NCBI RefSeq assembly: GCF_017302985.1
Contig: NZ_JAFIMU010000004.1
Span: 972,869-1,036,868, forward strand
Direction of reading: 5' to 3'
Origin: Corallococcus macrosporus
GTDB taxonomy: Bacteria; Myxococcota; Myxococcia; Myxococcales; Myxococcaceae
DNA: 64,000 nucleotides
Both the position numbers and the translations under genes were made by a program. The notes under the pieces were generated by a model that was given only the letters and a program-made list of their open reading frames with translations, ran no database searches and was not told the DNA's origin. Within the stretch, counting starts at the first letter, position 1. Each line of letters begins with the position of its first letter. Shown piece by piece: positions 5,218-11,108 of the stretch.

Positions 5218-6729
5218 TCATGGCAAGACCCGGGCCACATGGCGTTTCCCAACGAAGTAGCTGCGCGTGTCGGTCCGCGCGAGGCACCGTGCACCGCTCG
5301 CGGAGTACGCAACGGGTTCGAGGCCCACCGCATCACAGAGGGAGGGGAGGCCTTCAACGCCAGGGGGCGGCTGCATCGCTCCTTGCGCCGACGCTTGCGT
5401 GAAGCCCGTGTCGACGTCGATGACGACCGTGACGGTGTGATCATCCTGTCTGTAGCCCTGGGATCGTCCGTTGACGTGGCTGGGGGTGACGAGCGCAAGT
5501 GTGACCTGTCGCGGCGTAGCCGAGATGGCCGTGCAGAGTCCTGGCAGCTCGAAGACCTCACGGCCTTCAATCGCAACCGCTGAGCGTCCCAGCCGCCACC
5601 ATGCCGTGACGAGCCGCTCCCCCGCGAAGGTCCCCACGGCATGCGTCGTCGGTTCATCGAAGACGCGCTCGAAGTCTCGATACACCGCGGGGCCATTCGT
5701 ACGCGCACCCACGAGGGCGTGGGTGAGCCGAGCAACAAGGTGTCGCCGCTGATGCGGGCTGCGTTCTTCGAGTTCGGCGATCCCCAGGTCCCGCGCGGTG
5801 TGCAGAAGGAGCTCGCTTCCGCCGTCGTCACCGAGGGAAAGCAGCTCGGTCTCAAAGCCATCGCGAGGTGTGTACTCGCCAGGCTGCGCACGGACGCAGA
5901 AGAGGGAGCGCGGCACGCCGGGTTCCAGCGCGACAGGGACCTCCAGCCAGCGAGCGACCTTGGCGACGAAGTCGGCGCCCAGGGCCGAGGAGGCCGCATC
6001 GATGCGGCTATCCGTGATCCAGATGCCCTCATCCAGCACGTAGCGGGTGCCGAGGGGATGCTCCTCCACCGCGAGCTTCACCCGGAGCGGAGGCATCGTC
6101 TCCATCGAAGGGCGTGCGAATGACAGCACCCGTGCTGACGGGACTTCGTCACCCTCGATGAGCTTCAGTGAGACATCAAGCCAGTGCTCGCCAGCGAGTT
6201 GCTTGATCAGTTCATTGAATCCATCGGAGGTGAAGTGCTCGAGTGCTTCCATGATGGAAGGTGGGATGCCCGGGCCTTCAATCCTGGGCATCAAGCGCTC
6301 CTCGGCAATCTCGACGCCATGGAAGCTCGTGCCGTCCATCGAATACCCAGACAACACGACCCCGCCTGTCGGCGAGGCCTGCGCACTCACCATCGCCGTG
6401 CCGTCATACAGAGAGACGTGCAGGGCCTCACACCCGAGCACGCGCGCGATGAGCCCCAGCCTGTGCTCACGCGTGGTGCCAGGTTCCGCGAGCAGCTCCA
6501 GCGGAGCCGTCTTGACGACGGACCATCCTCCGCGCCCGGCTCCGATTGCGAGGGCCCACCGGTCGGAGGTCGCGCCGGTTCCATACTGCATCCGGTCCCA
6601 CGTCTCGCGCTTGCGCCGCACGTAGGGCACGGCGACGAGCCCTTCCTCCAGGCAGAGATTGCGGATGGCTCGTTCCAGCGCGTCGAGGTCGTCCGTCCGG
6701 AAGAGCGTCACTTGTCCCCATTCACCCAT
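5218..6729 (-). CDS. uncharacterised 503-residue cytosolic protein
   Basis: I do not recognise this protein. It has no signal peptide or membrane segment and looks globular and acidic, with stretches such as WSVVKTAPLELL and LGADFVAKVARWLEVPVAL. The opening resembles self-standing proteins that compare two measured values (QVTLFRTDDLDALERAIRNL), but that is too weak for a call. The ATG at 6729 is chosen over an in-frame start at 6777, because the earlier part is Arg-rich and has no homology-like character. The base composition seems a little less GC-biased than in the neighbours. It is divergent from the RNA repair/poly(A) polymerase gene across 138 bases and upstream of the propeller lipoprotein. 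Confidence 0.7.
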   Translation of the reverse strand: MGEWGQVTLFRTDDLDALERAIRNLCLEEGLVAVPYVRRKRETWDRMQYGTGATSDRWALAIGAGRGGWSVVKTAPLELLAEPGTTREHRLGLIARVLGCEALHVSLYDGTAMVSAQASPTGGVVLSGYSMDGTSFHGVEIAEERLMPRIEGPGIPPSIMEALEHFTSDGFNELIKQLAGEHWLDVSLKLIEGDEVPSARVLSFARPSMETMPPLRVKLAVEEHPLGTRYVLDEGIWITDSRIDAASSALGADFVAKVARWLEVPVALEPGVPRSLFCVRAQPGEYTPRDGFETELLSLGDDGGSELLLHTARDLGIAELEERSPHQRRHLVARLTHALVGARTNGPAVYRDFERVFDEPTTHAVGTFAGERLVTAWWRLGRSAVAIEGREVFELPGLCTAISATPRQVTLALVTPSHVNGRSQGYRQDDHTVTVVIDVDTGFTQASAQGAMQPPPGVEGLPSLCDAVGLEPVAYSASGARCLARTDTRSYFVGKRHVARVLP

Positions 6730-6867
6730 GGGCCGCTGTATATCGAAACAGGGGCGCCTGGCCTTGCGGTGGCGCATGTCAGGCGGGCCTAATCCATCGC
6801 GTCAAAGGCGGCGCGTGCGCGGCCCGTGCTGGCGTGCCTTCCCGTCCTCTTCGCCACGAGCCGCGCC

Positions 6868-9800
6868 ATGTCTCAGGAACGCTTCACGACCAGCCGCGAG
6901 GTGTATCACCGGATCCGGTGGGACCCACGGCTCGACGCCCGCGAGTTCGTCGTCGGCTACGACGCGCACCGTGGCGCGCTGGAGGAGATGCCCTTCGAGG
7001 CCTTCGTCCCCGATGGCGAGATTCCCTGGCACCGCGTCTGGTACTTCAAGCGCGGACCCCAGGTGGTGTGGGACCGCAAGGAACGCATCGACCTGCTGAG
7101 CAATGCCCGGCCCGAGGAGGAGCCCGCGTCACCTCCGCTCCTCGCGGTGCCGGGTTTCACGCCGCTGCCCGCATGGCGGTACGACGCACGCTCGGGCTCG
7201 TGGATGGAGGGCTCGCGTGACGTGGGCCACGCGCCTGCCAATCCGGCTTCGCTCACGCTCGCCACCTTCAACGTCCTCTTCGACCTGTACGACGCGCACC
7301 TGCTGGCCACCGAGCGCAGGACCCCGGCGGCGCTCGCGCTGCTCCGCGAGACGGACGCGGACGTCATCGCGCTCCAGGAGGTCACTCCGCCGTTCCTCCG
7401 GGCCCTGCTCGCGGAACCCTGGGTGCGCGAGCGCTACTGGCTGTCCGATGGTCCCGGCGCGCACACCGTGGAGCGCTATGGCCAGGTGCTCCTGTCCCGC
7501 GTGCCCTTCGCTTCCGTGTGGCAGCGCGTCTTCTCCCGGGACAAGCGCATCATCGCCGCCGAGCTGCGCCTCAACGGTGGCGCACTGTGGGTGGCCACGC
7601 CGCACCTGACGAGCAACCGGGATGCATCCGGCGCCTCCGCGCGCGCCGTGCAGGTCGAGGCCCTGCTCGAATGGGCCCGTGCGCTCGGTGCCACCGGTGA
7701 CAAGGATGCTGCTCCGGATCTGGTGCTGGCCGGCGACTTCAACTTCGGAGACGGAGCGCCGGAAGCGGAGTCCTTCGCGCGAGCGGGCTTCGTGGATGCG
7801 TGGTCCGCGCTACGGCCTTCGGAAGCAGGGGAGACGTACAACCCCCGGCTGAACACGCTGGCGGCGCTCACCACCGTCTCGGGGCGGATGCAGCGGTTGG
7901 ATCGGGTGTTCGTGGCATCGCCTTCGGGCCGGCTCACTCCCACGGCCGTGGACCTCTTCGGCGAAGCGCCCCTGGCGGGCCCTCCCGCTCCCAATGGGCA
8001 GCCCCTGTTCGTGTCGGATCACTCCGGCCTGCGCTGCGCCTTGCGCCGGGGTGCGGCCACGCTCGCGCCGCGGGCCTCCACGGCGTTGGTGCATCACACG
8101 GCCCTGGTGCTCATCCCTCCGGAAGAGGTCTGGGGGCCCATCCAGGCGCTGCGCAAGAAGCACGACGCGAAGTTCCAGCGGTGGATGCCTCACATCACGC
8201 TGCTGTATCCCTTCGTCCCGGAAGAGGACTTCGAGACGGCGGAGGCCCTCCTCGTGGATGCCCTCCAGGGAGCCGAACCCTTCGAGGTGACGCTCTCCGC
8301 GTTCGGCCACTTCGAGCACCGCGCCAACGCGACCGCGTGGCTCCGTCCCGATGCCCAGCCCGCCAGCGCGCTGTCGGCCCTGCACGCGAGGCTCGTGGCG
8401 GCACTGCCCGAATGCGCCACGTCCGCTCACGGTGGCTTTACGCCCCACCTCTCCGTAGGTCAGCTCCCGCTCTCAGAAGACCCTGCCGATACCCTCGCCG
8501 AGTGGCAGCGAAGCTGGCGGCCATTGAAGTTCCGTGTGGGCGAGCTCTGTCTCATCCGGAGGCGGGGCGACACGCCCTTCGAGATCATCCGGCGCATCCC
8601 ACTCGCACCGGCACGAAGCGAAGACGCTGCATTGCGCGAAACCCTGGGTGCCGAGACGCAGGACGGGCACGCCGCCAGGACCGCGGCCGTGGAGCAGCTG
8701 CGTCAGCACTGCGACAGCATCGGCACCACGCTGCATCCCTATGGCTCGTATCTCCTGGGCACGGATGGCGCGGGCAGTGACGTGGACGCGGTCGCCATTG
8801 GCCCCGCGAGCCTGCCTCGCGAGGACTTCGCGCGAGCGCTCCTCCAGGCACTGACACCCGGCACGGCGCGCTACATGGCGGACGCCGCCATCCCGCTGGT
8901 GAAGCTGTCCCTGGGAGGCGTGAGCTTCGACCTGGCCTATGCAGGCCGTCCGGAGGGCGTGCCTCCGGAAGATCCGCTGACGCTGCTCGCGAGGCATGGC
9001 GACCAGCTCGACCCCGCGGGCCTCCGCGCCGTGCTGGGATTGGCGGACACGCTGGGCCTGATGGATGCCATTGCCCGTGACGGCGGACGGACCGCGCGAT
9101 TCCAGACCCTGCTGCGCGCGGTCAAGCAGTGGGCCCGAGCGCGGGGCATCTACTCACACGCGCTGGGCTACCTGGGCGGGTTGTCGTGGACGCTGCTCGC
9201 GGCCTGGGCGTGCACCCGCGCGACCCAGGACGCGATGCGGTCCGACGCGTCGCTGCTCGCGCACTTCTTCAGCACCTTCGCCTCGTGGCCGTGGCCCCAG
9301 CCCGTGACGCTCACGCCCGAAACGGCGCGGTACCGGCCTGACGGCAAGCGCGACCTCCTGCCCGTCATCGCCCCCGCGCTCCCCGCGCGAAACACCGCGC
9401 GCAACGTGTCGCGGTCCACGTTCCGCGTCATCCGGGAGGAACTGCTCCGTGCCCGCGACCTCGTGGCCCACGCGCGCGCCGCAGGGACTCCCTCCGCCTG
9501 GGCCGCGCTCTTCGCGCCCTTCAACGCCCATGAGTCCCCACAGGCCACGCTGCGCCTGTCCGTCGAGGCCGCCACCCCGGACGACCGGGAGATCGTCGCG
9601 GGTTGGGTCCTCGGACACGTCACGGCCCTGGTGTATCGGCTGGAGGGGGACAGGCGGCTCTCCGTGCGCCCGTTCCAGCCCGCGCACGCCGGAGGCCCGC
9701 TGCTCATTGGCCTGGAGGTGCGCGATGCGCGGGACGCGGAGGCCTTGGCCTGGCAGCCGCGAAGCCCGCTGTTCGCGGCCGTGGAGGCGTTCCACGCGTC

Positions 9801-9897
9801 CTTCCAGGAATGGACGCACCGCCCGGCCAGCGCGGTGCTCCAGGTCGAATGGGTGCGCGGCAATGACAGCTCACGGAGCGGCGCTCCCGCTCCGTAA
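6868..9897 (+). CDS. MJ1316-EEP-2H-poly(A) polymerase fusion, putative RNA 3'-end repair protein
   Basis: This 1009-residue protein joins four modules. Residues 1-76 are a DUF504/MJ1316 domain (HRIRWDP, EIPWHRVWYF, VVWDRK). Residues about 128-395 are an endonuclease/exonuclease/phosphatase domain with N135, E171, GDFN (290-292) and SDH (383-385). Residues about 405-580 are a 2H phosphoesterase with HIT (442-444) and HLS (527-529). Residues about 590-1009 resemble canonical eukaryotic poly(A) polymerase: GS-x10-SDVD (626-640, catalytic D638, D640 and D688), KQWARARGIYSHALGYLGG, and LPVIAPALPARNTARNVS (831-848). A PAP-type RNA-binding domain follows. EEP and 2H enzymes can process 2',3'-cyclic or 2'-phosphate ends and the polymerase can extend RNA, so end repair is inferred. 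The start is the ATG at 6868. Confidence 0.9.
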   Translation: MSQERFTTSREVYHRIRWDPRLDAREFVVGYDAHRGALEEMPFEAFVPDGEIPWHRVWYFKRGPQVVWDRKERIDLLSNARPEEEPASPPLLAVPGFTPLPAWRYDARSGSWMEGSRDVGHAPANPASLTLATFNVLFDLYDAHLLATERRTPAALALLRETDADVIALQEVTPPFLRALLAEPWVRERYWLSDGPGAHTVERYGQVLLSRVPFASVWQRVFSRDKRIIAAELRLNGGALWVATPHLTSNRDASGASARAVQVEALLEWARALGATGDKDAAPDLVLAGDFNFGDGAPEAESFARAGFVDAWSALRPSEAGETYNPRLNTLAALTTVSGRMQRLDRVFVASPSGRLTPTAVDLFGEAPLAGPPAPNGQPLFVSDHSGLRCALRRGAATLAPRASTALVHHTALVLIPPEEVWGPIQALRKKHDAKFQRWMPHITLLYPFVPEEDFETAEALLVDALQGAEPFEVTLSAFGHFEHRANATAWLRPDAQPASALSALHARLVAALPECATSAHGGFTPHLSVGQLPLSEDPADTLAEWQRSWRPLKFRVGELCLIRRRGDTPFEIIRRIPLAPARSEDAALRETLGAETQDGHAARTAAVEQLRQHCDSIGTTLHPYGSYLLGTDGAGSDVDAVAIGPASLPREDFARALLQALTPGTARYMADAAIPLVKLSLGGVSFDLAYAGRPEGVPPEDPLTLLARHGDQLDPAGLRAVLGLADTLGLMDAIARDGGRTARFQTLLRAVKQWARARGIYSHALGYLGGLSWTLLAAWACTRATQDAMRSDASLLAHFFSTFASWPWPQPVTLTPETARYRPDGKRDLLPVIAPALPARNTARNVSRSTFRVIREELLRARDLVAHARAAGTPSAWAALFAPFNAHESPQATLRLSVEAATPDDREIVAGWVLGHVTALVYRLEGDRRLSVRPFQPAHAGGPLLIGLEVRDARDAEALAWQPRSPLFAAVEAFHASFQEWTHRPASAVLQVEWVRGNDSSRSGAPAP

Positions 9898-9913
9898 AGC
9901 CTGTCACTCCAAC

Positions 9914-9939
9914 GCTCGCGTCACTTCGCTCCCGCGAGC
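9914..9939. terminator. hairpin at the convergent 3' ends
   Basis: GCTCGCG and CGCGAGC arms (7 bp) enclose a 12-base loop. The hairpin begins 16 bases after the poly(A) polymerase stop and reaches into the last codons of the opposite lipoprotein gene. No T-run follows. Confidence 0.4.
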
Positions 9940-11108
9940 CACGAACCCCAGCGCACGATGCGCGTGCCGCCTTCGGGCTCGTTCTTGCCACCCGTCACCA
10001 CGCGCTCGGTGTTGCTGGCGAGCGGCTGGAAGCGCACCTCATAGGGCATGCCCGCGAGCCCCGGTGCCCACGGCTCGGCCGCGTAGGTCTGCGAGAAGAC
10101 GCGCTGGGTGCCTTCGACGTTCTCGCTGCTCTGCTCGATGAGCGCGGGCACGTTCCGGCCCTCCGCGCTGAACGTGCCTCGGGTGGCGGACGCGGCGGAG
10201 GCGGGCGGCCAATCCCCCGCGGAGAGCACCTCCCAGGGCAGGCCCATCAGCAGCTCCTCCAGCGGCTCCGGCTCGGCCTGGGAGAAGTCGGAGCACGGGG
10301 CGGCGTTGGCCTCGACGGGGCCTTCGGTGCGCAGCAGGTAGCCACGCTCGGCGCTGAAGCACACGCGCTGCGTGCCGGGCGGGGTCCCCGCCACGTCCAC
10401 GAACCGCTCGTAGAACGCGCCCGGGCCCAGGGGCCGCTCCAGCGCGGGCACGGGGGCGCTGGCCTCCGCTGAACCCTCGCGGACCTCGCGCAGCGTCAGC
10501 TTGACGCCGCCCGGCATGCCGAAGCCGGACGACTCCGTCCCCGCCTCGACCAGGCCGCGCATGAGGTAGAGCGGGCCCGGCGTGTTGGCGTACACGCGCG
10601 TGCGCAGGGGGCCGTCCACGGGGCGCTGATCGTTGACGTAGCGGACCGCCTCCCAGCTGCGGCCCGCGCCGGAGACGACCTCGGCGGTGGCCTTGCCGCC
10701 ATGGGGCACGTCGAGCGGACGCGTCGTGTCCGCGCGCACCGGGAAGAGCAGGTCCTGCGCCAGCCGCGCCTGGGAGAAGGGCTTGCCCGACTCATCGCTG
10801 AAGGCCGCGCGCACCCAGACCCAGGGCTGCTGCACCGCCACCACCTCCAGCGTCAGCTGCCCTTGAAGGCTGCGCGCGGTGCCCCCACCACCGCGCGGCG
10901 AGGGGCCCTGCGTCGCGGTGAAGGCGTAGGTGATCCGATCCCCCACGCGTGCGCGCGCCCAGGCCTCGGAGGCCTGCACGGACGCGGTGTCCTGGGAGCG
11001 CGTATCGGAAGGGGAAGGGCCGCTCGACTTCGTGCTCTCGCAGCCGGGAAGGAACGACAGGGCCGCACCCAACAGCGCGGCGATGGGGAGGGAAGGGCGC
11101 ATGGTCAT
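9921..11108 (-). CDS. exported lipoprotein of unknown function
   Basis: The 395-residue protein begins with a lipoprotein signal (AALLGAALSFLPGC) and a Ser/Thr/Asp-rich linker. A beta-rich domain of about 340 residues follows, with segments such as GDRITYAFTATQG and GQLTLEVVAVQQPWVWVRA. These suggest a barrel- or lipocalin-like outer-surface domain, but no family was recognised. Two ATG codons at 11108 and 11102 are possible starts, and both keep the same signal peptide. A GTG at 11138 would add ten residues before the signal and is less likely. It is divergent from the M57 peptidase operon across the longest gene-free stretch in the window. Confidence 0.8.
   Translation of the reverse strand: MTMRPSLPIAALLGAALSFLPGCESTKSSGPSPSDTRSQDTASVQASEAWARARVGDRITYAFTATQGPSPRGGGGTARSLQGQLTLEVVAVQQPWVWVRAAFSDESGKPFSQARLAQDLLFPVRADTTRPLDVPHGGKATAEVVSGAGRSWEAVRYVNDQRPVDGPLRTRVYANTPGPLYLMRGLVEAGTESSGFGMPGGVKLTLREVREGSAEASAPVPALERPLGPGAFYERFVDVAGTPPGTQRVCFSAERGYLLRTEGPVEANAAPCSDFSQAEPEPLEELLMGLPWEVLSAGDWPPASAASATRGTFSAEGRNVPALIEQSSENVEGTQRVFSQTYAAEPWAPGLAGMPYEVRFQPLASNTERVVTGGKNEPEGGTRIVRWGSWLAGAK

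Follow-up and report, generated by a model that had tools for sequence, protein, structure and literature searches.

Canonical poly(A) polymerases (PAPs) are commonly regarded as nuclear enzymes of eukaryotes. PAP alpha and gamma, Pap1 and Pla1 all have the same order of nucleotidyltransferase (NTase), central and RNA-binding domains, together with a catalytic triad of aspartates. RNAs with 2',3'-cyclic phosphate ends, on the other side of RNA metabolism, are left by metal-independent endoribonucleases, toxins for example. Several described proteins act on RNA ends or are predicted to do so. ANGEL2, a member of the EEP family, clears 2',3'-cyclic phosphate by way of a 2'-phosphate intermediate to give a 2',3'-OH end (PMC13247085), and TDP2, of the same family, is known for its action on 5' tyrosyl links and unlinks VPg from the 5' ends of viral RNA (PMC7077319). 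When bdelloid rotifers meet a fungal pathogen, horizontally acquired genes of the 2H phosphoesterase family PF13563 are strongly induced and rank among their most marked responses, which the authors link to ribotoxins (PMC11258130). According to PMC6514570, the MJ1316 domain recognises 2',3'-cyclic ends, itself a prediction, and occurs in fusions with RNA-repair domains; as reported there and in PMC11258130, Burroughs and Aravind had predicted MJ1316-linked RNA-repair fusions in 2016 (doi 10.1093/nar/gkw722). In those predicted proteins, as in the one described here, MJ1316 is joined to RNA end-processing domains.

We analysed a window of 64,000 nucleotides of Corallococcus macrosporus DNA, which contains a gene for a protein with MJ1316, EEP, 2H and PAP parts (Table 1). 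A first-pass annotation had placed these four domains in a single reading frame, and the Pfam matches and the intact frame bear this out; catalytic residues are present in the EEP, 2H and PAP parts. There is an earlier in-frame alternative start, GTG at 6826, upstream of the ATG. Most homologues share the N-terminus MS[QH][ED]RF... while their upstream sequence diverges, and the ATG is therefore favoured. The source genome (9.8 Mb) has one copy of the gene, which is under purifying selection, with dN much lower than dS in each of the four domains. A chance match or frame artefact is ruled out by the strong domain E-values, the conserved start and this dN to dS relation, and contamination with eukaryotic DNA by the 1.09 Mb contig, the GC-rich codon use and the same neighbours in sister Corallococcus genomes.

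Table 1. Position of the gene and of its predicted domains in the window.
Feature	Positions	Strand	Evidence
Whole gene, 1009 aa, four-domain protein	6868..9897	+	ATG to stop, open frame
MJ1316 domain (residues 7-70), predicted to recognise 2',3'-cyclic ends of RNA	6886..7077	+	Pfam PF04457 6e-17 (62.5 bits, cut-off 26.3)
EEP phosphodiesterase/phosphatase domain, TDP2-like, residues 132-385	7261..8022	+	Pfam PF03372 (Exo_endo_phos) 2e-15
2H phosphoesterase domain, residues 417-568	8116..8571	+	Pfam PF13563 (2_5_RNA_ligase2) 7e-42
PAP nucleotidyltransferase domain, residues 614-701; G626-S627, D638, D640, D688	8707..8970	+	PF20750 (PAP_NTPase) 6e-5, under its cut-off
PAP central domain, residues 745-883	9100..9516	+	PF04928 5e-27
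C-terminal RNA-binding-like domain, about residues 890-1000	9535..9867	+	AF2 models

By sequence and structure, the last part of the protein is of the canonical eukaryotic PAP class, and tailing is its predicted activity. Searched against the PDB with phmmer, it matched only canonical eukaryotic PAPs (human PAP gamma, 2e-36; bovine alpha, 8e-33; yeast Pap1, 2e-30). With a profile made from 17 divergent bacterial homologues, E-values were 1e-63 to 1e-55 for human, bovine and yeast nuclear PAPs (human PAP gamma 6e-63, yeast Pap1 1e-57), compared with 3e-10 for Cid1, 7e-6 for CdnC and 0.02 for archaeal CCA enzymes. Two AlphaFold2 (AF2) models of this part, with pLDDT 76 and 80, matched human and bovine PAP along about 380 residues, the RNA-binding domain among them, with a Z of 29.7; the alignment spans residues 33-494 of human PAP gamma. 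The next structural class (URT1, CD-NTases and Cid1) reached a Z of about 19-20 (best 19.9; CD-NTase 19.1). In the models, the C-terminal domain has the fold beta-alpha-beta-beta-alpha-alpha-beta. The first-pass annotation had claimed canonical eukaryotic features well beyond the NTase core, the RNA-binding domain among them, and both the profile and the full-length structural match agree with it. An origin of the PAP part from PcnB or CCA enzymes is ruled out, as it has no PF01743 head domain and CCA enzymes matched at 0.02 against 1e-63. Two separate PF01743 (PcnB/CCA-type) genes are present in the source genome, so the ordinary tailing and CCA functions are met elsewhere. The catalytic aspartates are conserved among homologues: in an alignment of 27 rows, some of which are one species from two collections, every row has D638 and D640 and 26 have D688 (glutamate in L032), and all three are kept in 18/18 divergent homologues. 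Identity between canonical PAPs and the Myxococcaceae members is about 27-35%. Unlike canonical PAPs, the bacterial protein is fused to three further domains and has no known cleavage-factor partners. The region around Y762 and H764 is variable, being Y-x-N in eukaryotic PAPs and different again in other members, and ATP specificity is therefore not assured.

The EEP domain has the catalytic set of its superfamily (N, E, H, DxN, D, DH), and N135, E171, H246, S249, D290, N292, D345, D384 and H385 are invariant in 18 divergent homologues. These had been read as CCR4/Angel residues, which is inaccurate: the residues are common to EEP proteins in general, and TDP2 is the nearest relative by sequence and structure. 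TDP2 was the closest solved relative of residues 124-396, with about 25% identity and a profile E-value of 1e-26, against 3e-8 for nocturnin and 5e-6 for CNOT6L. The model of the domain matched TDP2 with a Foldseek value of 2.6e-14 and a structural Z of 27.8; nocturnin, CNOT6L, PDE12 and ANGEL2 ranked after it, at Z 22.8-23.4. On these values the CCR4/ANGEL branch was dropped for TDP2. ANGEL2 has the EEP fold in common with the domain and provides a biochemical precedent for removing 2',3'-cyclic phosphate, but it belongs to the CCR4 branch and is less similar (Z 22.8), and with a TDP2-like domain the direct analogy to its 2',3'-cyclic phosphatase activity is therefore lost. TDP2 itself acts on 5'-tyrosyl ends and is without MJ1316, 2H or PAP domains. 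Standalone EEP proteins akin to the domain occur at L039, L040, L045, L046 and L047, from metagenome-assembled genomes (MAGs) labelled Myxococcota, Planctomycetota and Rickettsiaceae.

In the MJ1316 part, W18, P53, R56, W68, D69, R70 and D75 are kept across divergent homologues; a search by sequence found no solved relative of this domain. The 2H domain has both of the expected motifs, H442-x-T and H527-x-S, with the two histidines invariant in the 16 homologues that carry the domain; HxN stands in place of the first motif in several divergent members. The closest solved fold was YjcG (2e-11), followed by cyclic phosphodiesterases. The YjcG/ThpR-type 2H phosphoesterases (PF13563) have the two histidine motifs in common with this domain but are standalone proteins, unlike the fused domain here. 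A full-length relative from Calothrix is annotated as thpR_2, RNA 2',3'-cyclic phosphodiesterase, a name that fits only its 2H domain.

The four-domain family is rare yet spread over several bacterial phyla. Of 195 genomes from the source phylum, 47 had PAP_central over the cut-off, all of them in one family; the same held for 7/379 genomes around the MAG genome G195 and 3/294 around a Planctomycetota MAG, and there were no such matches in 299 genomes around a Rickettsiaceae MAG or in 14 control genomes. The MJ1316-EEP-2H-PAP order was complete in nearly all matches retrieved with enough flank. Full-length members also come from a conjugative plasmid of Calothrix and from large replicons of Embleya and Nonomuraea (Actinomycetota). 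Presence is patchy, with the gene missing within genera and no match in some Corallococcus genomes.

Several variants depart from the full architecture. Two proteins (L101:3436-5829 and L102:3634-5982) keep MJ1316, EEP and PAP and have no 2H domain; shortly upstream of each, on the same strand, there is a phosphodiester glycosidase (NAGPA) gene. Short proteins with MJ1316 and 2H only are encoded on two Streptomyces plasmids (L120:4298-5158 and L121:4995-5900), and are absent as genes from the PLSDB gene table, which is incomplete. In Myxococcus xanthus and its relatives (L041-L044, 8001-8255), the Myxococcus locus that encodes the whole protein in sister species holds an MJ1316 gene of 84-85 aa, and the other three domains have apparently been deleted. 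One of these loci, L044, is labelled Comamonas and resembles Myxococcus. Pyxidicoccus fallax carries the full-length gene twice in tandem (L082:3206-6619 and 6623-9802 (-); also L036). The frame of the Archangium lansinium gene (L037, 8001-11110) is broken at about 9836-9983, by a frameshift or a sequencing error. At two divergent loci, L104:1814-4750 and L105:2360-5047 (-), the gene lies directly 3' of a gene for an HTTM-domain membrane protein. Scans of IMG/VR and of phage records found no relative. When viral proteins were searched by fold, there was a single good match, Hyperionvirus A0A3G5AFW8 (845 aa, named as EEP family), which aligned to the PAP model across 419 columns at 6.8e-11; its name, taken with the match, suggests that EEP and PAP are joined in one protein of a giant virus.

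The gene in the window stands alone, with neighbours on the other strand that include EamA, DUF6068 and AtuA; these are conserved among Corallococcus and differ in other genera. No RNA ligase, kinase or similar repair gene, as expected in an operon-type RNA repair system, was found adjoining it, nor was any repair gene found among the neighbours of the scanned relatives. With no repair gene nearby and neighbours that change between genera, the protein looks self-contained. Elsewhere in the source genome there are about five RtcB genes (G000:C4, C7), seemingly many. None of the anti-phage models of PADLOC matched the window protein; the Calothrix relative had a single weak match, to a cyclase.

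We consider it about an even chance (probability roughly 0.5) that the protein is a self-contained enzyme that heals RNA 3' ends and then extends them. Its MJ1316 domain would bind RNA with a 2',3'-cyclic phosphate at the 3' end, the 2H domain would open the cyclic ring to a phosphomonoester, and the TDP2-like EEP domain would strip the remaining phosphate, or another end block, to leave a 3'-OH. The PAP domain, gripping the RNA by its own RNA-binding domain, would then add nucleotides without a template. The purpose that we favour is the rescue or clearance of RNAs cut in conflict or stress; the added tail may lead to repair or to the decay that bacterial tails usually bring about. The substrate, the order of the steps, the nucleotide added and this purpose are what we infer. 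Because the same domain order recurs in divergent bacteria, the parts probably work together; the 2'-phosphate intermediate of ANGEL2 fits an order of 2H and then EEP; and the patchy presence, the absence within genera and the copy on a conjugative plasmid fit conflict-linked genes. The two members without 2H still have MJ1316 and EEP beside PAP, and the induction of PF13563 genes in pathogen-exposed bdelloid rotifers (PMC11258130) lends circumstantial support. Against healing and extension count the lack of an adjoining ligase or kinase and the unlike neighbours between genera, the kinship of the EEP domain to an enzyme known for 5' tyrosyl links and not for 2',3'-cyclic ends, the predicted status of MJ1316 function itself, and the variable Y762/H764 region. 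The term machine, by which the first-pass annotation implied a new system, was too strong, as MJ1316-linked repair fusions had been predicted earlier (as cited in PMC6514570).

The same chemistry could serve the opposite purpose. Cyclic or phosphorylated 3' ends withstand phosphorolytic decay, and the enzyme may clear broken RNA by exposing a 3'-OH and adding a tail that gives exonucleases a place to start. Bacterial poly(A) tails in general promote decay, no ligase lies in the neighbourhood, and the gene stands alone and is missing in several Corallococcus genomes, all of which suit clearance; however, the genome already has its two PcnB/CCA-type genes, and its several RtcB ligases could seal healed RNAs, and we regard this purpose as possible but not probable. 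An arrangement in which EEP strips a protein or nucleotide adduct from the 5' end while 2H and PAP work on the 3' end of the same RNA would make sense of TDP2 as the nearest relative of the EEP domain by sequence and structure, and TDP2 does release VPg from viral RNA 5' ends (PMC7077319). Yet kinship of fold does not settle substrate, and MJ1316, 2H and PAP all indicate the 3' end, which makes action on both ends quite unlikely. We know of no bacterial RNA substrate with a 5' protein or nucleotide adduct.

The protein might instead belong to oligonucleotide signalling of the CBASS or OAS kind, with the NTase making 2'-5' or cyclic oligonucleotides and 2H or EEP destroying them. There are weak matches to CBASS cyclases, and 2H and EEP enzymes include 2'-5' phosphodiesterases. 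This is nevertheless very improbable, since the PAP class lies far above the CD-NTases (Z 29.7 vs 19.1; E 1e-63 vs 7e-6), the RNA-binding domain is retained, and no effector gene was recognised among the immediate neighbours. Healing and extension of RNA 3' ends remains our preferred reading.

We also built two trees of the PAP part with CBASS cyclases as a distant outgroup; their eukaryotic sampling consists of four PAP sequences, fragments from PDB alignments. The eukaryotic PAPs fell beside the Myxococcaceae proteins in both (support 86/84 and 90/84) and, in the second tree, inside a larger bacterial group (98/97), but the alternative with all bacterial proteins in one clade was not rejected (AU p = 0.31 and 0.19). 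Because branches are long, composition is unusual and eukaryotes are represented by four sequences only, the position of eukaryotic PAPs within the bacterial family is no more than a lead. That nuclear PAP arose from inside a bacterial RNA end-repair family, or that this family took its PAP from an early eukaryote and spread it to bacteria and giant viruses, is an unlikely proposal.

Related MJ1316 fusions are reportedly listed in Burroughs and Aravind 2016, and the MJ1316-EEP-2H-PAP architecture may well have been described already in that year. The present analysis assigns the EEP domain as TDP2-like and the PAP part to a structural class, documents the residue conservation, the occurrence in several phyla along with variants that have lost domains and a relative in a giant virus, and raises the question of how PAPs are rooted. 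A conserved bacterial family that combines a PAP with end-cleaning domains offers a single purifiable protein on which RNA repair by healing and then extension could be tested, and its natural variants, without 2H or with MJ1316 alone, are ready-made probes of the role of each part. The family also provides close outgroups for the question of eukaryotic PAP origin. If the proposed descent were true, the enzyme that tails eukaryotic mRNA would derive from a bacterial RNA-repair module.
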